A stretch of 64,000 nt of DNA from Morchella semilibera (Eukaryota > Ascomycota > Pezizomycetes > Pezizales > Morchellaceae), in NCBI GenBank assembly GCA_009192285.1, contig CM018606.1, positions 1,168,081-1,232,080 on the forward strand, given 5' to 3'. The translations under genes and the position numbers were made by a program. The notes beneath the pieces are model-generated. The model was not told the DNA's origin, ran no database searches, and was given only the letters and a program-made list of their open reading frames with translations. Positions 40,964 to 55,100 of the stretch are shown piece after piece (the first letter of the stretch is position 1; each line of letters begins with the position of its first letter).

Positions 40964-42060
40964 AGTGAGGTTAGGCAGGGACTGAATGACTGGTATTTTT
41001 TCTTTCTTTGGAAAGACCAATTGACAGATGATAGGGGCCGACGAGCAGGTGGCGGGTGCCCGTATATATAGCTATGGTGGGGCAGACCAGGATCGCAGCT
41101 CGATAAATGGTGGGGGATGAGTGTCTTGGCTTGCAAGGATTTTTTTTTCCCTGAGTATTTCTTTTTCTTTATGATGAGGCGATTGATTGTTTAGCCCCCG
41201 CAAGAAAGTCCTCGGTGATGGTAGGAAATGATGAGACACCCGAAAAGTAGATACTGGTGATAGCGCCCTAGCAACAACTAGAATCGAGGTCTTGTAACTG
41301 TAACCTACGTACCCTACAAACCCCGCTGATAGTTTTCTGTGTCAACAATTGCAAACTTTAGTTGTATAGAGTTGTTTTCGGCCCAGGGTGGACGAATTGA
41401 CCGAAGGGGTCTTGATCTCTGAAGGCATAGGCCCTATCACAATTCAATCGATTATCTTCATCTAAGAAGCTTAAGCTCCCCCCCGGAGAAGTATGGATGT
41501 AAAAAACAGGACAACTACGGCGTCGATTTCATAATCAACTAGAGTCACCACGGCCACTATCAGCTACATATTATGTATGTGGCTGCGTGCATTATTGCGA
41601 ACCGGGGAAAATATATCCTTATTGCAAGGTCTAGACCACTCTTGTATTATGTCATTACTGCCTTTTGCCAAGGCTATTATTGCTATAGAAGGGCCACTAA
41701 ATTCCCTCCTGTATCACAATAAGACAAGTCAAGGGTTTCTTCCACTGCCAGAATCAATATCACGAACACGTAGTGAAGCAAATAATCGAGTGATAATACA
41801 TGACGCTAGTAGGCTAAGCCTTTTTGTTGATTATTTATATAGATTAAACCGGCCATATATTAACATTGTCACTGGTGGATTTTTACCAATGATTAGACAT
41901 TTACTTATGTCACGATAGTACATATATATACAAGTCGTCTCCGGCCTTCGGCCGGTCAGGAAAATGAAATCGCGCCCAAAAGTGATAGGTCATCTTGCTG
42001 AGTCATCCTAGTGAGTCATCCTTCTGCTTAGTCATCTCATCATCATGAGGATCTCCGCCT
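40964..42060. other. Intergenic region upstream of HOM2
   Basis: No gene is recognised. A frame at 41577-41918 (113 codons) has no identifiable domain. The HOM2 promoter lies at 40964-41250. This is the last ordinary sequence before the repeat array. Confidence 0.35.
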
Positions 42061-42065
42061 CCACC

Positions 42066-42171
42066 TTAATATCCACCCCCACCCCCACCTCCACCTCCAC
42101 CTCCACCTCCACCTCCACCTCCACCTCCACCTCCACCTCCACCTCCACCTCCACCTCCACCTCCACCTCCT
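42066..42171. repeat. CCACCT hexanucleotide microsatellite
   Basis: About 16 perfect tandem copies of ccacct, preceded by two or three cccaccc variants. The array is strictly strand-asymmetric (C/T with A on one strand, no G), so it may form unusual DNA structure. It opens a stretch of successive tandem arrays. Confidence 0.95.
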
Positions 42172-42204
42172 ATTCTGACACCTATGCTAACGTTTATTTA
42201 GACT

Positions 42205-42577
42205 CCTAGGACACGCCCAAATCGACGCCCAAATCGACGCCAAAACCTCGCCTAGGACACGCCCAAATCGACGCCTAGGACACGCCCAAATCGACGCCTA
42301 GGACACGCCCAAATCGACGCCTAGGACACGCCCAAATCGACGCCTAGGACACGCCCAAATCGACACCTAGGACACGCCCAAATCGACACCTAGGACACGC
42401 CCAAATCGACGCCTAGGACACGCCCAAATCGACACCTAGGACACGCCCAAATCGACGCCTAGGACACGCCCAAATCGACGCCTAGGACACGCCCAAATCG
42501 ACGCCTAGGACACGCCCAAATCGACACCTAGGACACGCCCAAATCGACGCCTAGGACACGCCCAAATCGACGCCTAG
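42205..42577. repeat. 23-base minisatellite with CCTAGG core
   Basis: From 42251 about 14 head-to-tail copies of a 23-base unit (cctaggacacgcccaaatcg + acg), preceded by two partial copies. Copies differ mainly at one G/A position (gacgcc versus gacacc), a CpG to CpA-type transition. The unit holds the palindrome CCTAGG. The period is not a multiple of three, so no repeated protein is encoded. Confidence 0.95.
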
Positions 42578-42589
42578 TCCTATACCGAC

Positions 42590-43195
42590 ACGGCACCGAA
42601 TCATCCTCCCAGGACCGAACCAAGCACCCAGGACCGAACCGAGCTCCTAGGACGACACCGAATCGACCTCCCAGCACCGAATCATCCTCCCAGGACCGAA
42701 CCAAGCACCCAGGACCGAACCGAGCTCCTAGGACGATACCGAATCGACCTCCCAGGACCGAACCAAGCACCCAGGACGACACTGAATCAACCTCCCAGCA
42801 CCGAATCAACCTCCCAGCACCGAATCAACCTCCCAGCACCGAATCGACCTTCCAGCACCGAATCGACCTCCCAGCGGACCGAACCAAGCACCCAGGACCA
42901 AACCAAGCTCCTAGGACCGAACCGAGCTCCTAGGACGATACCGAATCGACCTCCCAGGACCGAACCAAGCACCCAGGACGACACCGAATCAACCTCCCAG
43001 CACCGAATCAACCTCCCAGCACCGAATCATCCTCCCAGGACCGAACCAAGCACCCAGGACCGAACCGAGCTCCTAGGACGATACCGAATCGACCTCCCAG
43101 CACTGAATCATCCTCTCAGGATTGAACCAAGCATTCAGGACTGAATCGAGCTCTTAGGATGGCATTGAATAGACTTCTCAGAATTGAACCGAGTT
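42590..43195. repeat. 19-base minisatellite with higher-order structure
   Basis: About 30 copies of a 19-base family (gaccgaaccaagcacccag, gaccgaaccgagctcctag, caccgaatcatcctcccag) plus 24-base variants that add a gacga(c/t) lead. Variants occur in a recurring order, giving a higher-order repeat. The last five or so copies (43110-43195) carry many C-to-T changes (ctctcag, attgaacc, cattcag). The minus-strand reading as Gly/Arg/Val-rich repeats is a by-product. Confidence 0.92.
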
Positions 43196-43257
43196 ATTTC
43201 TTGCCTTGTTATTGATATAGAAAGATCAACTTATGGTTCCGGTGAAATTTATGTTAC

Positions 43258-43345
43258 GGGCGAGCGTGAGTGACTGTTCCGGTGAGCGACTGTTCCGGTG
43301 AGCGTCTGTTCCGGTGAGCGACTGTTCCGGTGAAATTCTTTATCG
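43258..43345. repeat. 16-base minisatellite (ggtgagcgactgttcc)
   Basis: Four near-identical tandem 16-base units, flanked by related gtgagcgtgagcgac sequence up to about 43375. It sits between the 19-base array and the upstream region of the oxygenase-like gene. Confidence 0.8.
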
Positions 43346-43437
43346 TATGAGTGAGTGTGAGCGTGAGCGACTATTCCGAGAGACAGTAATGATGTGAACT
43401 TGTGCAATCTTTTATGCTATAGGTTAGTGATGGTATT

Positions 43438-43672
43438 TAAAGAAATAGTTCAACGACAGAAGGAATGTTTAGGTGCTAGGCCCTCGATATTATTTCTAAA
43501 GTCAAGCAACTTGATCTGGATGATACCGATGCTATATCTTAAGCTATTGATTAGCAATTTCCCTCGTGATTTGATGGTTCCTAAAGAAATAGTTCAATGA
43601 CAGGACGAATGTTGAGGTGCTAGGCCCTTGATATTACTTCTAAAGTCAAGTAACTTGATCTGGATGGTTCTG
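43438..43672. repeat. Direct repeat of about 93 bases
   Basis: 43439-43532 and 43577-43670 are near copies: both run aaagaaatagttcaa(c/t)gaca, then ggtgctaggccc and aagtcaa(g/a)... to cttgatctggatg. Differences are mostly C/T. Downstream (43675-43805) a tgactcccgat word recurs about four times. These repeats may belong to a mobile-element end or to the promoter of the next gene. Confidence 0.8.
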
Positions 43673-43817
43673 ATGTGACTCCCGATGTGACCAACTGATA
43701 TGAGTAATGTATGTGACTCCCGATTTGTTGAGAAATATATATGACTCCCGATATGAGTCATTGATGTAAGCAATATATGTGAATAATATATGTAACTCCC
43801 GATGCCAGTATGAGCGA

Positions 43818-43827
43818 TTTATATAAG
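43818..43827 (+). promoter_or_regulatory. TATA-like box
   Basis: tttatataag lies 67-76 bases upstream of the ATG at 43894, a plausible core promoter for the oxygenase-like gene. It is position and motif only; no transcription start is known. Confidence 0.4.
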
Positions 43828-43893
43828 AAGGGCCACCTCACCCCTTTGTTCTTATATTTACCATCCCCGATATCAACTGATTAAACCTTCATA

Positions 43894-45384
43894 ATGCCTC
43901 CAATCCGATCAACTAAAATCCCTATTAATGAACTTGCTAGTTACATAGCAGGCCGACCTTCCTTACTTCAAAAGATTAGAGATAATAATATTGATTCTCT
44001 TATGATTTCTATCAAGACAAAGTTCCCAGATGTCACCGATGAGTTCTTCAATGACCTTGCTTCCTTCCTTAACGATTCAAAACAACTAGAAACTCCAAGC
44101 AAATATGGTGAGCTCAAGGCTGCTTTGGAGGAAAGGAAATCTGAGAAAAATAGAATTAAGAGAGTTAAAGCTCTCTTTGTCAGAGATTGCAACTTGAAGG
44201 AGGACGATGCAAGGAGGGAGAAATACCTGGAAAAATTTGCGATTGTGGAAGTCAACCGATATGAATCACCATACCCTCCCCCAAGCCACTGGGTATATGA
44301 ATCCGACCAAATTCATGACATTTGGCATGACCATTTGCAGCTTGGAAAGCCGAAGGACAAAAGACTTAAGATACCACCGATGTTACTTTTGGAACCACAA
44401 CATCTCCAATTGGATGTTACCGAGAAGCAAAGTATTATCTTTGTCGATGCCAAAACCAAAGAGATTGTTGGCTTGGTTGCAAGGGATTGGATGGCCGAGG
44501 ACAGGAAAGAAACTCTAGAATGGGTCAATGATGTTATTATCAAGGAATGTCAGATTAGGAAATCTGTCCGAGTAAGTACTATTTCCCCAATTTTACTCTT
44601 CCGAGTGCTAATTATTTCTTAGCTTGAAGATTCTGGCAAACTTTGTCAGATGGGTTTCTCAGCTGGTTCCAGAAGCAAATCCAGTTTCGATTGGGTCAGA
44701 AACATCACTTCTAAGAAAAACCGACAGGAACAGTTTGAACATATGGGCAGCTATATCTTTGCTCTTCTATGGAACATGAGTAAGGGGAGGTTGCCGAAGC
44801 CTATTATTGATGATATTACTGGTTTTTGCAATTCTACTCTCATTCCGAGAATGAATTATGCTGCTAAGCATAAAGCTACTTCTCAAACTTTGGGGAACTA
44901 TATGGTCCGAGTAGGGAATGATGATATTGAGTTTGACTGTGTTCCGATGGCACCACCTTCTGGGTTCATGGCATATAATTATGCAAGGTAATATTCTTTC
45001 CGAGTACATATATTTTATTCTTACTAATTAATTATATATAGGGGTACTCATAATGAAAAATGCCCTCATAAGTATGCTTTGTTCTGGACTACAGCTAGGA
45101 CATATGGTACCGATGAGGGGGGACATTTCTTCATTGCCGACTATGGTATTAGAATCCGACAGACAGCAAACTCAGTTGTGGTTTGGAAGCCGACAGACTT
45201 TCATGGAACTATTCTATCAGTTAAAGGCCCTACCAATGAGGATTCTGATTCTCATCAAATTGGTATGAGTATTGTTACTCCTGTCCGATTGTTAAAGTTA
45301 TGGGAGAAATATCAACAGGAACAGGTTACTGCCGAGAATGTTGAGACTATGTTGATTGAGTCCGATGAGTCCGAGGAGGAATAA
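43894..45384 (+). CDS. Candidate TET/JBP-like 2OG-Fe(II) dioxygenase-fold protein beside a Helitron
   Basis: Exons 43894-44571, 44623-44987 and 45042-45384 give 461 residues; donors are gtaagt, gtaata and acceptors ttag, atag, with a ttactaat branch site. Residues 1-220 are helical and charged, with no recognised family. The C-terminal third reads like the double-stranded beta-helix of fungal TET/JBP proteins: a first metal motif HNE (where H-x-D is usual), then GGHFFIADYGIRI (compare the GGDL-PELGI pattern of fungal TETs) and VVVWKPTDFHGT, with a plausible distal histidine, then TPVRLL. TET/JBP enzymes oxidise methylated bases. If correct, the E-for-D change and the missing canonical Arg spacing leave activity open. 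It could also be another cupin-like fold. The gene converges on the Helitron gene 261 bases away and has no frame damage. Confidence 0.5.
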
Positions 45385-45645
45385 ATTGTTATTTTCTATA
45401 TTAGAGTTTTTTCTTTATTGTCATTACTTAAAATCTCAGCTCCTGTATTGAGTACTCATAGTTATTACAGCTGCCGATAAGCAGTAATAACTATTTGTTT
45501 TTGTATCCGATTGCTACTGATTCCGATGAATATTATTTCCGATTACCGATAGTTGTTGCAACTTAAGTGAGCAGTAGTAACTATTATTTATTGTGCACCG
45601 ATAGTTTTGAAAAATAATGTAAAAAATAAAAAAAAAAAAATTATT
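45385..45645. other. AT-rich spacer between oxygenase-like and Helitron genes
   Basis: The two genes end here tail to tail. An A-rich run (45617-45643) lies just past the Helitron stop. Short ccgat and gcagtaataacta words recur. No coding sequence is seen. Confidence 0.4.
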
Positions 45646-48600
45646 TTATAATAAAAGATCTCTATATACAATATTTTTGATTTTGTTTGTGTCCCCGATA
45701 TCAATATTTGATGTACTATTACCTACTAAACACCTAATGTTATTTCTGTGCCTGACTCGGGAAATACTTGTATATAGTTGGCCATGTGCAAATACAGGAG
45801 TTCTGAGATCAATAACAGCCCTATCGAGTGTTAAACCTTGACAACTATTAAAAGTTGTTGAATATGCTAATCGTAAAGGAAATTGCCTTCTCTGCACTGT
45901 CCAAGAACAATATTTTGGCTGAAATTCAAATACGATTCTAGGGAGACAGAAGACAGTTGTATCTCGTCTTATATTTTCTGCAGTAGATATTAATTCAACC
46001 TTAATAAACCTCTCATGAAGCTCTTTGATTACTACTCGGGAATTCTTGACCAAACCATTTTCTAGAGATAGATTTCGCATTATCGAGCAAACACACCCAA
46101 CCTTCAAAATCAAATTATGTGGTGGCACACCAGGCTCCTTTAACATAGACAGGAAATCAAGAATCTCCCCCGAGGGTAGAATATTGCTTGTAGAAGATGT
46201 GAAGTTGGGATCTTCCTTGATACAATCGTGACTATAGTAGGTTCTTTCTATCAGATATAGATATATTAGTTTATAATCGTTCATGACTGTTAGGGGAAAA
46301 GTATATATACCCTCAATTGTCGGGAGTCTTTCAAGAATTGCCAGGTTGAATTGGTCTACATTGATATTAAGAGGGCTGAGAAAAGCATGATGAGAAACTG
46401 TCGCTGGATCTTGCAATACTTCTGGAGGGAATAGATAATCCATTGCTTCTTCGATGGTGTCTAAATGCTCAATTAAATCTAGAGTGACAAAGGATTCATT
46501 TGATTCTTGACAGCCATCCCCGATTTGATCCACCCACTTGGCATATTCTAAATCGGAGATATTCCTTATAGGTGTATCCAATTGTAGGATTTTAAATTGT
46601 TGCCAAAGATAGGACGATCGTATAGAGGCTTCTAGTGTAGCTGTTGGTCCTGCTGACTTTACCACTGGTGCTACCTGTCGAAAGTCTCCTAAACCAAGAA
46701 ATACTTTGCCACCAAATGGCTTGTCGTTGGCAAGCACAAGTTGCAAGAACTCATTTGCACATTCGATCGCTGCTTTGTTGGCCATAGGCATCTCCTCCCA
46801 TATGATTAAGCTTGACTGCGATAGTAATCTGGCCCGATCTGACCTGATGCTTAAGGTAGATTGTAGTTCCATATTATTCTAATATCATTATGTTAGCCAT
46901 CGTATTAACCAAAACTCTTAAATAAATTAACTTTACCTCAACGACAGGAATTCCAAATGCAGAGTGTGCTGTGCGACCCCTCTCATATAGGGTAACACTT
47001 AAGGCAGTTGAACCAGTAATAACGACAATATCCCCTTGTCCCCTTAAATAATTTACAATCGTATTAACAACATATGTTTTCCCCCGACCAGCCTTCCCAT
47101 CTAGAAAAAAACATGTATGGTCAGGAACATTCCCGATGAATATATTATCAATAGTATTGATTATAGTATTAAAGGCCTCCAACTGTTGAGGTAATAACTG
47201 TTCCCGAGATGATGTTGCCCTTTCAGTAAGCTCTATTCTACGATGGTCAAAGGCAAGTGTCTCCAGAAATATTTCATCAGAGATATCTTGAGGTTGAGGT
47301 AAACCAAAGTCTGATAGGCTACTCCCTTGAGAGGCAAGATGCCTTGCGATTTCTTCCAAACATTTGTTGATAACCATCGTCGGAGAGTCGTATTGGTCAA
47401 GATAATCTGCTGATAGAGCCTCCTGATATTCCTCGAACAGCTCAATTGCTATAACTGGAATATTCACTAGAAGATGTGCAAAGAGAAATCGTAGCTGATT
47501 GGGGCTGCAAAAACTTTGAACTGCCTCTAACATAATCTCTCTACCCTCCGATTGATTCTCAAAAAGACCTAATGCTGCTGCTGCTTCCTGAAATGTTGCA
47601 TATGTAATATCATTAACAATCTTGAGGTCCTTGAAACTATATGCTGCTCTATGTAACAGGAGAGCTCGGAGGTAGAATAATTCTCCAGTCCTGGGGGAGA
47701 CAGTGTCAATTCGGGCTATTGCTTCATTCCTCTTCCTAGCTCTAACAATGAACTGTGGATAACTGTTGCATATTTCTTCTAGGAAATCGGTATCTTTGAG
47801 GGTAGTTGAGGACCTTGAGTAGAGAACCCATTTTTCGTAATATTGAATATATGTCAAATCCTGAAATAATACATCTCGGGGCCTGGAAAAATATCTAAGC
47901 AGGGTCGATGCTGTAGACTCTCCACCATTCTTTCGGTACATCTGATGCATATTTCTTCCAGGGAGGTGAACTGTAAGAGATTTGACTGCAGGCGATCGAT
48001 CTGTAAGGTGATACTGTAGGATCCTCCATGCTGCCTCCGAGGCAGACAGATATCTTGCATTAATATAATCAGTAATTTCGTCAACCTCCTCTTGTCCCTC
48101 AGAACTGAAAGAAAACAGTGTTCGATCTGGTCCTTTAAATAGATATTTATACAGATACATAAAAATGTTAACTGTAAAGCATACATCAACATTAACATGA
48201 CATTCCAGCAATTTGGTAAGGAATGGCATATATGATGCAATCCATCGATCCTCTTCCTTCCTCCTTCTATATTGTACCCGACCATATTGATTAAGCTCTG
48301 TGGTTTCCCGAATAGCTTGTGGGTATCCCCAAACACACGATCCATTTTTGTTGCACCGACTGTTGACATAATTCAAATGGGTTTGAGGGTGTTGGTTGAA
48401 TCGTAGAACCAATTCTCGCAGACCTGAATCTTCCTCTTCTGTAGGTACTTCGGCAGATACTATTGAATCAATAGCAGAGAAAGGTAGTTCAGGATGCACC
48501 TATTATATATTAATATCAACTTTAATTAAGAACAGATTAAATCGTACCTTAATAACAATATGAGCATGTGGTAACCCTCTCTTTTGGAACTCAATAACTC

Positions 48601-49138
48601 GAACAATGTAGACTATTGTCCCTAGATGGCTCCGAAGCTTGGCAATAGCATTCTCCAACCTAGCTTTGAATACCCGACAGACGATTACTGGTATATCTGA
48701 AGCAGTCTGTCCAGGATGCAATTGTGATTTAATCTCTGGCCAGTTGGGATTTGTTGTAATCGTAATAAAGAAGGAGGGTTTGCCTCTTGATCTACAGATA
48801 GCAAGAGAGTCGGCTACTTCATTTGATGCCCCATGCTCGGGAGCCTAAAAAGGAATTGGGTAGTGTCGTGCCTTTCTCAAATGGTAAACCCCCTACTGCC
48901 TCTGCCTCTGCAGATTGTTGAATATACTGTTCTCTCTCGTCCCTTTTCGTATATAGTACCTAATCTCTCATCCTCTACCCCTCGAGTACATGTCCACCAA
49001 GTACTCCCCACATAATCTACCAAACCTAAGAAATCTATCCTCTGTTGTGAGCCTGGCCCTATACCATCGTATTTGACTAAAATCAGATTTTTGCAGTCCC
49101 ACCGGTCGATCTTGACCATGAGGGAAAATAAACAGATC
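45646..49138 (-). pseudogene. Helitron Rep-helicase gene, N-terminal half degenerate
   Basis: Helitrons move by rolling-circle replication with a fused HUH nuclease and PIF1-type helicase. Intact exons read 48499-46937 and 46878-45646 (58-base intron), joined upstream to an exon ending at 48548 (48-base intron). The HUH site EFQKRGLPHAHIVI is present at 48548-48610, the Rep tyrosine region YLYKYLFKG at about 48150, Walker A DGKAGRGKT near 47095 and Walker B-like IIWEEMPM near 46800 (EE where DE is usual), ending in TSISRVRHRNNIRCLV. Upstream of 48830 the family sequence continues in pieces: GKPSFFITITTNPNWPEI in frame, then PNSFLGSRAWG in another frame with a stop after it, and GEYLVDMYSR and LFIFPHGQDRPVG (to 49138) in further frames. 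So at least two or three frame breaks and stops hit the Rep N-terminus, while about 1,000 residues after it remain open. Confidence 0.85.
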
Positions 49139-52100
49139 TATTGCAAATGGCCATTAAAGGACTGTTCGGCCTAGATATCCAGCGATTGGCTTTAGCGCTG
49201 ATCAAGAGATATACATTTCTTACGTAAAAACCCCATACGAAGCCTGCCTTAGGTAGCGACTTCTTGTGATATTTGTTGCCATGGTATAACTCGCAAAGCT
49301 TGTATACCCTCCCCCCCTCCCTCAGTCATCTTTTGCAGGTGAGTGAGTAATTCAAGTGCAAGTGGAGTATCTGCGGCAAGTAGAGTGAATGCATTGCTCG
49401 GGACGGATGAGGCGCCAGAACCAAACAGGATTAAGGACTTCTTCTAGTAGCGTTTCTGTAAGCTGGGTACCATAAAGGATGGACAACCCCACGAAGCCTC
49501 AAGACCAGACGTCTCCTTTTGAATCTTCATCGTGGAATAGAAACCATCGTATTTCGAAATGTTTTATGTCCTTGTATGAAGTGTGAGGCATCCCAGCCAT
49601 ATTGTGGTTGATATGAAGCCTCTCCTGTGAATAGTCTCACCATGGAGGGTGTGGAATTGGTTAAACCTTGTCAATACGCCTCTTTGTAGACTCCCCCAAA
49701 TATGGAAAATAAAGCAATAGTGTAATTATGAGCTTGTTCCCTCCCGACACTGATCCCCACCCTTAGTGTGTAACCCAATATGTTGCCTCAAAATTCAAAT
49801 CCCTAAAATATCCCTGCCGGTGACAGAGAATAGGCATAGGAAGGAAAGTAGTATTGGTATTTCCAACCGGCATTAGTTACAACCACAACCATTAGTCTCA
49901 TATTCTGAAAGCAGCTTCATACAGTTAGTACCGTGTTGCCAATTTATAATATGTATCTCTTGGTCGAGTGATTTGTATTATCAAGTGTCCCACCCCAAAT
50001 GCTCCCGGTGAGGGGGTAAATGCGGTGCAAAATTTCTATGGTTGTTAATATGCTCTCATTAGGCGTTTTGGGTGGTTTGTCGGCGATTTCTAATCTGATG
50101 TCCATCAGCCTTGAAATATAACGTGGTCTGTATTTGATTAAATTGAGACTGTTTGGTAGGCTTGGGAATTTGCTGTTTCCCTGCCCTCATTTGGTATGAG
50201 CGAGCGCCATGTCTATAGTCCAAATCCAGATCTGGATTGTCTGGAATTTGTTCTTGTCATGGCCAATTACGATTATGTTGAAAAAGAAATATTATATGAT
50301 GTAACGAAAAGATACTCCGATACACCGTTCCCCGAAAAGAGTATACCCCCCAAAGCCTCTATCTTATAATTCTGACTAATACGTAAACAATTTTTTTCCT
50401 CCCAAACAAAAATGCGAAAAACCCTCAAGTAATATAAATAAATCCCCAGAAAAACCCCTGAACCTATTATCAGACCATACAATCCATTATCTTAAATCCG
50501 GAGCCCACTATCCTTCAAATCTCCAGTGCCTCTGCCACTTTTCCACGAACAGTCGCGTCCACCAAACTCTAGAGAGCCAATCCAAATTTAGATTACACTT
50601 GAAGCCCTTCCCTTTTGACTCGTCCCCGTCGCTGTGTTGCGAAACAGGAATGAGCCAACAGCAACCTTTTTAGGGGAGGGGAATTGAATACAAACTGACC
50701 ATCATCCATTGAATCTTTTCTGGAAGCCCCGAGAGGCAACCCCCAAGAATCTTCCAAACTTCTTATGAACATTCTAACCTCTCATCCGAAAGTGATTGCA
50801 AAGACCCTCTCACTAGATCCACCTGCCCAAGACGCGCTGTATCGCGACTTAACATAATATATATTTCAATGACTCTGATACCAAACAACCAATGGAAAAA
50901 GTAGAATGTGATGAATGTGAATATCGACGGACTAGACTCCTGCAATCTAAACAACATCCATGATATTGAATTAGAACCACTATCAACTTTGAGGGATAAG
51001 CTATTCCTGTTGACTTCTTGATGATCTTCCCCATTCTCATCTGTTACCTAAGGTAGGATATACCACCTAATAACAAAAGTACTGTTCAGGAGAAGCTGAC
51101 TTTAGGAGGCAGCTTCCAAGTCGTTAGTAGGATATCGTAAATCAAAAAACATCTCCAACCCCAGTAGGAAGAGAACTGATAGATAAATGGCCGGTCTCCC
51201 AACAACCCTTTCGATCTCTGGGAGCTGAGTATATAAGTTGGCACATGAGGGCGGTGCATGCTATGTCGTCCCAATCGGGATGTGTAGTATCACCAGCAAA
51301 CCTAAGTTAAAAAAATATTGAGCTATGATATCCAAGGACAACTAGAAATTAATCAACCTTACTCCTTCTTATTTAGTAAAGCGATTAACACCCAACAAAA
51401 CCTAGTGCCATTGTTCCTCCATATTACCCCATTAGTCGCGAAAAGCCTGCCTCTGAACCACCTATAGCAAACAGGAGTTTCGGATAGGTTCTGAGAGAGA
51501 GATCATTGATTAAAAGTCAAACATGATTTACCCTTATCCCTTATAGGCATAATCTTCTCGTCATCCGTTGTAGCGAAAGAGTGTAAGACCTCACTTCAGC
51601 ATAAAAGATGCATTTGAATCTTATAAAATTAAAATACTCTCTCTATATCTATATCTCTATTTATACAGTCTATCTCATGCTCTATTGATGAATTTTCCAC
51701 GTAAGAATTTCTATCTCTCTATTTAAATGTTTGACGTCTATTTTTGGTATTTAGTATTGGGGTAGGTAAGGAGTCAGAATTTGAGGGTGTGTAAGTGTAA
51801 AGAAATGCCGCGAGTCTATCAAAAGTATCTCTAAACACAATTCTTAACTAATTATAATAACAATAAACATATTACTATTAATGTGGCGCTAGAGATCGTC
51901 AATTACATCAAAGTATAGAAAAAAGAAACTTTTCGGATATCCTTAAATCAATATAAGCAAAAAGCAAAGTCCTGATTATTAATATACATAGAGCATATAC
52001 CTCTAATCGCTACTGGCACTAATACCAATATAAGCAAAAAGTAAAGCCCCGATTACCAATACACATAGAGCATGCACCTCTAATCGCCACCAATACCAAT

Positions 52101-55100
52101 ATAACGCCAAAAACGCAAAAGGCCGCGATACCAATTAACACGATAGCGAGCATTCCACCCTCTAATCCCACCAATTTACCAATATAAGCAAAAAGCCATA
52201 CCCCCTGTATTAACCCATGAGCAACAAGCAGCGTTAAGACGCATTGCCACCTTGCCATAATCGCCATCCAATTACCTAATTATCAAGCCAAAAAGCATAA
52301 CTCAATACTTTAAATACCTTGTCTCCCAATTCAACAGACGCTTATTAAAACAAATAACTACACATCTGCATTCTGTATTCTATGTGTCCTTTGTTGTTGA
52401 TACTTAAAGAATAACCACTTTTAGCTAATATTATTGAAATTCTCCAGCTGTTATACCACCAGACATATGTATGACAGACCGAATCGAAATGCAACTAAAT
52501 GTCATAGCGCGGCGCAAGACTTTTCCAATTCCCGTAGGATTGCACTTTGTATAACACCCGGCTTTGGCAATAATATTCACAAATTTTTTCTCCTACTGCG
52601 CCGATAAAGCCCCCAATATTAACCTATTTCTTTAAGGAAACCCCTTTATGCAGACATAAAGATCAGAGCACCAGTGCACCCACCCAAGACCCGAGGCCAG
52701 AAAAAGCCTGTACCACAGCCTATCATATTTAATAGCGCTCCCAGCCTTCCCTGTATCGCTTTATACATGCCCCTTGGTAAACGACAACAGCACAACCAAC
52801 ACTTGCTCTACTGTTCCGCGCCACTTCTATCTACGAGGCGGACGTATTTTTAAAGGCTGTGATCAGGTAGTGGAGCCAGAAAGTCGTTCAAAAAGAGTTT
52901 TTATTACGAATACGAAGTATACGTTAAGTTTCGACATATATAAGTCCATAAAGGATACAGAACGTTAACAAACGTGGTCAGAACAAAGTCTAAACACTTG
53001 CCCAAAAGACATAATTCAATTGCCATACAAACTCCTTTTTCAATATAATTCCCAATTAACAAAACGATAAACACCGCTCGGGAAAAATTCACTTTTTTCA
53101 TATTTTCATGAGCTTATCTGGGTCTATTATCTAAATGTAGGTCTGGTACTGTGGCTCCGTTCTTCCTGTTTTCTTATCTTTCTCTCAATCTATACTCTTA
53201 ACTAGCTCCTACTCACTCCTTCTTCGAGACTACGAGTTCCTTATAATCGGATACCATAAGAAAGAAGGGATCTCACGTTATAAAGAACGCGGCTCCTAAC
53301 ATCAGGATTCCTGAGTTTAGTGCGTCTTTCGTTTGTATTATTGAGGTTGAAAACAACTGTTGCATCATGTAGTTGGAGGTCTCAGTGATGTAGATCTGAT
53401 AATAGCCGGAGTGCGCTCACCTGGTGCGCGGGAACTGGTGTACCGCACCTCTTTGCAGATCCGGGCCTGAGGCTACACAAAGAAATATTCCATCATGAGG
53501 TATTCTTAAGGAAAACAGGTCATGTTCCCGAGTACCTGTTGTTGACCGACTTCTGGCTTCTATATAATTGCGCATCCCCAGGGACTCACATCCTGGGTGC
53601 CGTTCCTCGCGTCTTCTTTTCGGCCCCTCCTTCTTTTTGTCCCGTTTTTTCTTTTTTTATCGCACTGGCGTTCCTTGGCGTTACTTAGCGTTAACTTCAC
53701 ATAAGTTTCCTTTCTGTCGCCAACTCTAGCCCCCGACCCGAGATAAACTATCATTTCCGGATGGAAAAAGAAGTGGCCGGATTGGTGTATGGTGATATTT
53801 CCGTTATGTTTTTCTTTACTCGTGTTCCGTAGAACACTCAATATCGCTAGTCTCCCCATGTAATCGTACGGTTACGTAGAGGCATGAGTCGAAAATTCGT
53901 AATCGATTTCAGTGGTTATTTGACTGATCAGTTTCTAGTCCCTGAAATCGGCTTGTTTCCATCCCATCAGTATTCTCATGACGTGTGTGTGTTTTTCTTG
54001 GCTTTGTTAGTCATTTGGTGAGGAGATGTACCAGAAATGTGTGAGATATGTGAACCCGTTGCCGCTCACTTGCTCAGTAAGCTCCGACCGTTGATCTTAT
54101 GGTAGGTAAATCTTACCTATGTATTCTACACGACAGAGAGCAGTGTTATAGTAGAGAGATCTGAAGTCTCTTGAGGTCTAGGTCTCTCAAGTCCTTCTGT
54201 GTTAAAAGAGATTAGTAAATATCTATCTTTGGAGAAAACAGATCTGCAGGCCACATAGGTCATGTATTTCATTAAGTTTGGTGGAGGTTTGTCTGTTCAC
54301 TGGTTTAGGGAGACAAACTCTTTATTCTGAAAGGTGCATGAAAAGAATAAATCAGTTTGATCAATTCTTATCGTCTTTAGAATCGCGTGAGTTTACCTGA
54401 TCTCTTATGAGAAAGCTCGTCAGAAATCAAGAGCCGTCGGCGAATACCTTCCGCGTCTCAATCAATTTTCTTGCCTGAAGCTTGGTCTAGATGCGTGCCC
54501 TTATCCTCGCTTGAGGCATTAGTTCGCGTTAACGACTCTGGAAGACCGCAAGCAAGCTCATTTAGTTTTAGTGCGTCTGATGCGTAAATGCTCCTCTGCC
54601 TCCTGAAAACCGCCTCTTTGCGATCTCTTACAGTATACCTTGGTCATAAGCGCTTCGCTGGATCTCCGGAAAAGAGTATGATTCCTTTTATCATAGTTCT
54701 TAAAGTGTGAATTCTTAATCTTTGGCTCTGGTTCCTCGTTTCTCTTTTGTGCCCCATGTGGCTTTGGTTTTCTCTTATAGCCGATGCCTCTTTTCGATGA
54801 TGCCAGTTGCGCTGAGGAAGACGATGGTGGGTAATATTTACGTTTTGTGCTCACAGGAGCGTTGTGGATACTATTATTGTTCTGCTTTCTGTTCTGATTT
54901 TCTGTGATTATTGGTACCTGTTGCTACTGATGTACCGGTCGTGGGCCCGAAGCCGTTGCCCCGCTTTGGCTGGACGCGTACTGTGTAAGTTTTCTTCTTT
55001 GTAACCCTCCAAAATGGTTGGTGTTGGTGAGTCTACTGTAGATGAGTAGATCTTCTGCTTTTTTGGTGGTAGCTTCTCTTTCTCTCACATCCCGACTCGT

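Follow-up and report, generated by a model that had tools for sequence, protein, structure and literature searches.

A locus of the morel Morchella semilibera (Ascomycota; Pezizales; Morchellaceae), in which an oxygenase-like gene stands tail-to-tail with the Rep-helicase of a Helitron, raises the question of whether the gene belongs to the transposon and what it might do there. The locus lies in a stretch of 64,000 nucleotides (assembly GCA_009192285.1, contig CM018606.1, positions 1,168,081 to 1,232,080, forward strand), hereafter the window, and the gene is called TET-1. TET-1 is Helitron cargo, located inside the element between its 3′ hairpin and its Rep-helicase. The reading that we favor, at a probability of roughly 70%, is that this cargo is a PE-type TET/JBP-like Fe(II)/2-oxoglutarate (2OG)-dependent oxygenase, most likely acting on 5-methylcytosine (5mC) to weaken silencing. 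Under such a mechanism, the enzyme would oxidize 5mC (or possibly another modified base) on element DNA, host methylation would then silence the element less efficiently, and C-to-T mutation would erode it less efficiently.

TET-1 lies inside a Helitron

The features of the element in the window are as follows.

41930..52204, minus (Rep strand): Helitron carrying TET-1; borders from homology to other copies, 3′ end common to six places
41930..41955, minus: Helitron 3′ terminus, hairpin CCGGCC-GAA-GGCCGG (41941-41955) plus 11 bases to the end, ...ACTTGT
42053..43145, no strand: minisatellite arrays with 6-, 23- and 19/81/202-base units between 3′ end and TET-1, kept in other copies
43894..44571, plus: TET-1 exon 1, from the spliced open reading frame
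44623..44987, plus: TET-1 exon 2, from the spliced open reading frame
45042..45384, plus: TET-1 exon 3, with H-N-E, GGHFF, D-F-H-G-T and the stop
45385..45645, no strand: spacer of 261 bases between the two stops
45646..46878, minus: helicase C-terminal open frame (PIF1, Pif1 2B)
46874..48499, minus: Rep-helicase middle open frame (YLYKY, GRGKT, start of PIF1)
48503..48844, minus: Rep nuclease part with H-A-H (Helitron_like_N)
48845..49137, minus: Rep N-terminal part, split across reading frames in the window copy
50588..52204, minus: repeat-containing 5′ portion, with homology to the copies C1_4388, C1_4766 and C19

A preliminary description of this DNA had reported an intact three-exon gene converging on a Helitron Rep-helicase, and the exons, the GT-AG borders of both introns and the two stops (45382-45384 for TET-1, 45646-45648 for the helicase) agree with that account. 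The TET-1 frame (43894-45384) is open through all three exons and encodes 461 amino acids. The Helitron half of the pair did not prove intact: its Rep is frameshifted, its 5′ terminus is absent and the element extends beyond the span first marked (43894-49138). Pfam matches on the minus strand were PIF1 helicase (PF05970; E 3.2e-24 and 6.4e-15), Pif1 2B (PF21530; E 3.3e-7) and Helitron_like_N (PF14214; E 7.6e-30, profile positions 97-191 of 191), and the Helitron hallmarks are present as an HUH motif (H-A-H), a paired-tyrosine motif (YLYKY) and a PIF1-type helicase with GRGKT. The Rep stretch at ~48845-49137, frameshifted in the window, forms one frame with two stops in C1_4388. On the Rep strand, the 3′ end consists of the hairpin followed by AGACGACTTGT and then by unrelated flanks, and homology to other copies ends at 41925-41929. 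At the other border, position 52204 is the last one homologous to other copies and not a true 5′ terminus, and the 5′-terminal sequence common to three other copies is absent from the window copy. Because of its broken Rep and missing 5′ end, the window Helitron in its assembled form is not autonomous, though TET-1 is open.

The consensus of the element's 5′ end is TAT[CT]TTATAAG, and flanks beyond the 3′ ACTTGT start with A or C. No target duplication was seen by eye in the flanks of the three copies having both ends, and no empty site was searched for. The TET-1 element shows neither the 3′ CTRR nor the insertion between A and T of a canonical Helitron1, and on its sequence features it is filed as a Helitron without choice between Helitron1 and Helitron2.

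To place TET-1 relative to other copies, the whole assembly (56,756,124 bases in 23 contigs, labeled C1, C3 and so on) was searched. The 3′-end pattern, with up to three mismatches allowed, occurred at five places, and a sixth instance, with a deletion, was found at C21. The terminus sits upstream of TET-1 or a relative at all six, and a convergent helicase of the same family lies beyond the gene at five (the window, C3, C1:4386679, C1:4761084 and C19), with inserted DNA separating the two at C3 and C19. The helicase search found no convergent same-family helicase at C21, where the TET-1 relative breaks off near residue 396, at the start of a stretch from a second Helitron lineage described below. 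Minisatellites between the 3′ end and TET-1 recur in other copies as well. The shared 3′ terminus upstream, the convergent helicase downstream and the shared minisatellites place the gene inside the element, and gathering the copies thus bore out the proposed link to a Helitron. Helitrons capture host genes, and an open TET-1 beside a broken Helitron might suggest an ordinary host gene with a transposon as its chance neighbor. The repeated linkage contradicts this explanation and leaves it very improbable, with identical order and 3′ end at C3, at two C1 loci and at C19, and gene plus 3′ end at C21.

The linkage count excludes TET-1 fragments at C11:1547807 and C1:2877729 and short fragments at C1:3615, C1:4951 and C2:4068. 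The first two were considered as a separate mobile unit and rejected as such: both start at the end of the element that splits the C3 TET-1, and both stop at an identical base beside a single N, so that a scaffold join is likely. The splitting element itself (C3:2050198-2060442) is a 10-kb insert with TCAGCAA/TTGCTGA ends and a near duplication of 7 bases; its end, together with 0.86 kb of TET-1, is what recurs on C11 and C1 up to the single N. A repeat of ~640 bases (L066:1552-2186) occurs at many of the loci examined and, in the C1_4757 element, within both TET-1 exon 2 and the 5′ part.

TET-1 as a putative Tet-like oxygenase

The H-x-E, GGHFFIADYGI and WKPTDFHGT pattern pointed out in the preliminary description is present in full in the spliced window protein, the first as H-N-E, and a 2-His-1-carboxylate motif of the HxD/E...H form is provided by H351-N-E353 and H402. 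Among the TET-1 rows covering each site, H-x-E was found in five of five (HNE in the window, C1_4388, C1_4757 and C19; HRE in C21) and D-[FY]-H in three of three. Scanned against Pfam, the window protein gave a single match, to PF20515 (Tet-like 2OG-Fe(II) oxygenase superfamily; E 0.23, 11.9 bits), aligning residues 204-405 with profile positions 4-209 of 211. Rows for four further TET-1 copies or lineages, with X in place of stops, were scanned alongside a shuffled and a reversed control. PF20515 was matched by the C19 copy, 69% identical, at E 1.8e-4 and 22.0 bits (profile 6-209), and by neither control. A search of viral contigs found no relative, and PHROGs returned just weak matches to unnamed families. 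Motif, sub-cut-off profile match and published precedent together support the earlier assignment of TET-1 as a Tet-like oxygenase, and its H-x-E hallmark fits the PE type of Kojima (Biology, December 2025; PMC12730594).

In the accessible parts of that article, TET/JBP genes are described in Helitrons of five Pezizales species (families Ascobolaceae, Tuberaceae, Morchellaceae and Pyronemataceae), the Helitrons are assigned to Helitron1, the PE type is defined by H-x-E and is the one type named for Pezizomycetes, and escape from methylation-based silencing is proposed. The window locus shares with these elements its order and the family Morchellaceae, a TET-like gene inside a Helitron, H-x-E and the proposed anti-silencing role, whereas its 3′ end reads ACTTGT in place of CTRR. 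Judging by those parts, the TET-bearing Helitron of the window is of a kind already described in 2025. The partnership of TET and Helitron in an ascomycete, first put forward as new, has been overtaken by that report; an anti-silencing function, also suggested at the outset, may be carried by the element. As described in the same article (PMC12730594), the AG-type TET/JBP genes of Kyakuja/KDZ transposons, among them CcTET of Coprinopsis, belong to the same superfamily and are likewise transposon-borne with presumed 5mC oxidation, but they have H-x-D and ride on elements with a DDE transposase. The KDZ family has just two matches in the present genome, adjacent on C2. Non-canonical Helitrons of Fusarium oxysporum (PMC5148889), also from Pezizomycotina, resemble the window element in their hairpins and non-CTRR ends and differ in terminal sequence, and the accessible text of that article mentions no TET gene.

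Selection and decay were compared among copies. Pairwise estimates of the Nei-Gojobori type on tblastn pieces, stops excluded, gave low ratios of nonsynonymous to synonymous divergence (dN/dS) for TET-1 of the window against C1_4388, C1_4757 and C19 (0.145, 0.159 and 0.144, at dS of 1.35, 1.20 and 1.44) and 0.17 against C21, where dS was saturated. Private C-to-T changes outnumbered T-to-C changes in the window (14:1), C3 (26:5), C1_4761 (121:44), C1_4388 (109:75) and C19 (44:20). The C-to-T rate peaked at CpG sites in each of the five copies, and the excess over other cytosines was significant in three of the four non-window copies (C3, 4.2-fold, p 0.002; C1_4761, 2.4-fold, p 0.0001; C1_4388, 1.7-fold, p 0.03) and not significant in C19 (p 0.11) and the window (p 0.36). 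An excess of CpA over CpC/CpT was clear in C19 (p 0.0003), marginal in C1_4388 (p 0.03) and absent in the remaining copies. This decay fits methylated DNA, though no strong repeat-induced point mutation (RIP), and six DNA methyltransferase-like stretches are present at four loci of the genome. Classic RIP was considered as the cause of tryptophan-to-stop changes, 11 of the 17 TET-1 stops in total lying where the window has the tryptophan codon TGG; the counts do not support a plain CpA process.

The fold, the substrate and the benefit to the element are the parts of the proposed role that we infer, and several observations weigh against them. Each of the five further TET-1 copies compared (C3, C1_4388, C1_4757, C19 and C21) contains stops. 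Copy integrity gives no sign of protection by TET-1: the matched helicase stretch is stop-free in two of five TET-1 Helitrons (the window and C3) and at four of eight one-piece loci of a TET-less Helitron family. Neither the window protein nor its C19 counterpart reaches the curated PF20515 cut-off of 27 bits, and the C1_4388, C1_4757 and C21 rows had no match in the Pfam scan. AlphaFold gave a mean predicted local distance difference test score (pLDDT) of 35.9 for TET-1, with an unspliced read-through and a shallow alignment as input, and sequence and profile searches of the PDB returned no relatives. TET-1 also lacks significant similarity to TET-2, the Tet-like gene of the second Helitron lineage: BLASTP gave E 0.84, and hhalign gave probabilities of 0.5% and 0.3%.

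Two of these points, the sub-cut-off score and the missing PDB match, together with low-pLDDT models, are what would be expected if the motifs were a chance likeness and the protein some other Helitron cargo, outside both TET/JBP and the 2OG-Fe(II) enzymes. This is improbable given the match of the C19 copy over nearly the full PF20515 profile, the unmatched controls and the agreement of TET-1 with the PE hallmark in the accessible parts of PMC12730594. In a less remote, though still unlikely, alternative, the Helitron does carry a Tet-like oxygenase, and this enzyme acts on another base, RNA or protein in place of element 5mC and helps the element by another route. Such a substrate would be compatible with H-x-E in place of H-x-D, with the lack of visible protection in copy integrity and with a PE type that counts zero tested members in the accessible text of PMC12730594. 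Against it, the C-to-T biased decay suggests that the element is methylated, and the tested fungal relative CcTET oxidizes both 5mC and N6-methyladenine (6mA), according to the same text. Oxidation of 5mC on element DNA is kept here as the most likely activity of TET-1.

Possible turnover of the TET module

TET-1 and the helicase of the same element differ widely in divergence. In C1_4388, C1_4757 and C19, helicase dS was 0.16-0.29, as compared to 1.2-1.4 for TET, and aligned-base identity to the window was 92-94% at the 3′ end, 67-83% in TET and 91-95% at 47.0-49.1 kb, with an exception within TET of 87% across 125 bases of C1_4388 exon 3. Between C1_4757 and C19, TET identity is 92-93%, and at least four TET-1 lineages were distinguished (window/C3, C1_4388, C1_4757/C19 and C21). 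Since synonymous divergence differs about five-fold within one element, the simplest reading is recombination, which would have exchanged TET modules or homogenized the helicase. A clean swap of TET is disfavored by the gradual climb in identity from 82-84% at 45.6-46.0 kb to 91-95%, and by the 5′ side of the element, which is just 82-87% identical. No published report of TET turnover within one Helitron family was found in the accessible parts of the literature.

TET-2 and a second Helitron lineage

When the whole genome was searched with PF20515, 12 stretches at 10 loci scored above the cut-off (best E 5.4e-37), the TET-1 exons not being among them. The TET-2 of C11 (L074:670-1722 = C11:309670-310722) has an open frame of 351 codons, matches PF20515 at E 3.6e-36 and contains H-R-D, GHFF and D-D-H-G-T. 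The Rep-helicase near it represents a distinct lineage, 24-26% identical to that of the window. A search with this Rep placed a second-lineage Rep within 13 kb at seven of the ten TET-2 loci, convergent in every case; at the remaining loci the nearest is 29 kb away at C4 and 1.9 Mb away at C21, and C19 has none. Under a simple binomial with random placement, seven of ten within 15 kb corresponds to p ~5e-14. Repeat arrays lie upstream of TET-2 as well, and the gene is probably located inside the second-lineage Helitron. The AlphaFold model of TET-2 had a mean pLDDT of 32.9, with few diverse relatives in the alignment. An hmmsearch of TET-1 against TET-2 returned ten shuffles and not TET-2; hhalign places H-N-E on H-R-D and HGT on HGT within its non-significant alignment.

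One morel genome thus appears to hold two distant Helitron lineages with different Tet-like oxygenases (H-x-E and H-x-D), both convergent with the Rep-helicase and with repeat arrays upstream, the TET of the first having turned over much faster than the helicase between conserved ends. TET might then be an anti-silencing cassette that ascomycete Helitrons have acquired repeatedly and can exchange, not one ancient capture, a reading that we propose tentatively and at slightly less than even odds. Searches of open-access literature listings turned up no H-x-D Tet-like gene described on an ascomycete Helitron. The second, H-x-D lineage and the turnover of the TET module in one Helitron family go beyond the accessible parts of PMC12730594 and are worth a specialist's time. 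Transposons with a DNA-modifying enzyme of their own make it possible to test directly if mobile elements remove the silencing marks of their host, and this genome offers two TET-bearing Helitron lineages, with the TET-less family as internal control, in one nucleus, where methylation, oxidized cytosine and mutation are comparable element by element. The eight one-piece loci of the TET-less family have no match to TET-1 or TET-2 within 10 kb.

At C20 (L042:364-3747), the Rep-helicase frame of the TET-less family is open over 1128 codons, with similar loci elsewhere. The Tet_JBP profile (PF12851) matched 19 stretches genome-wide, four of them above cut-off; its loci are C7:461686, C6:1734168, C21:913394 and C11:1610864, plus weaker stretches, and the C7 gene contains HMD and is open over 363 codons. 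The contig pairs C12/C13, C21/C22 and C9/C10 gave equal-score matches at near-equal coordinates, as though the assembly contained some parts twice.

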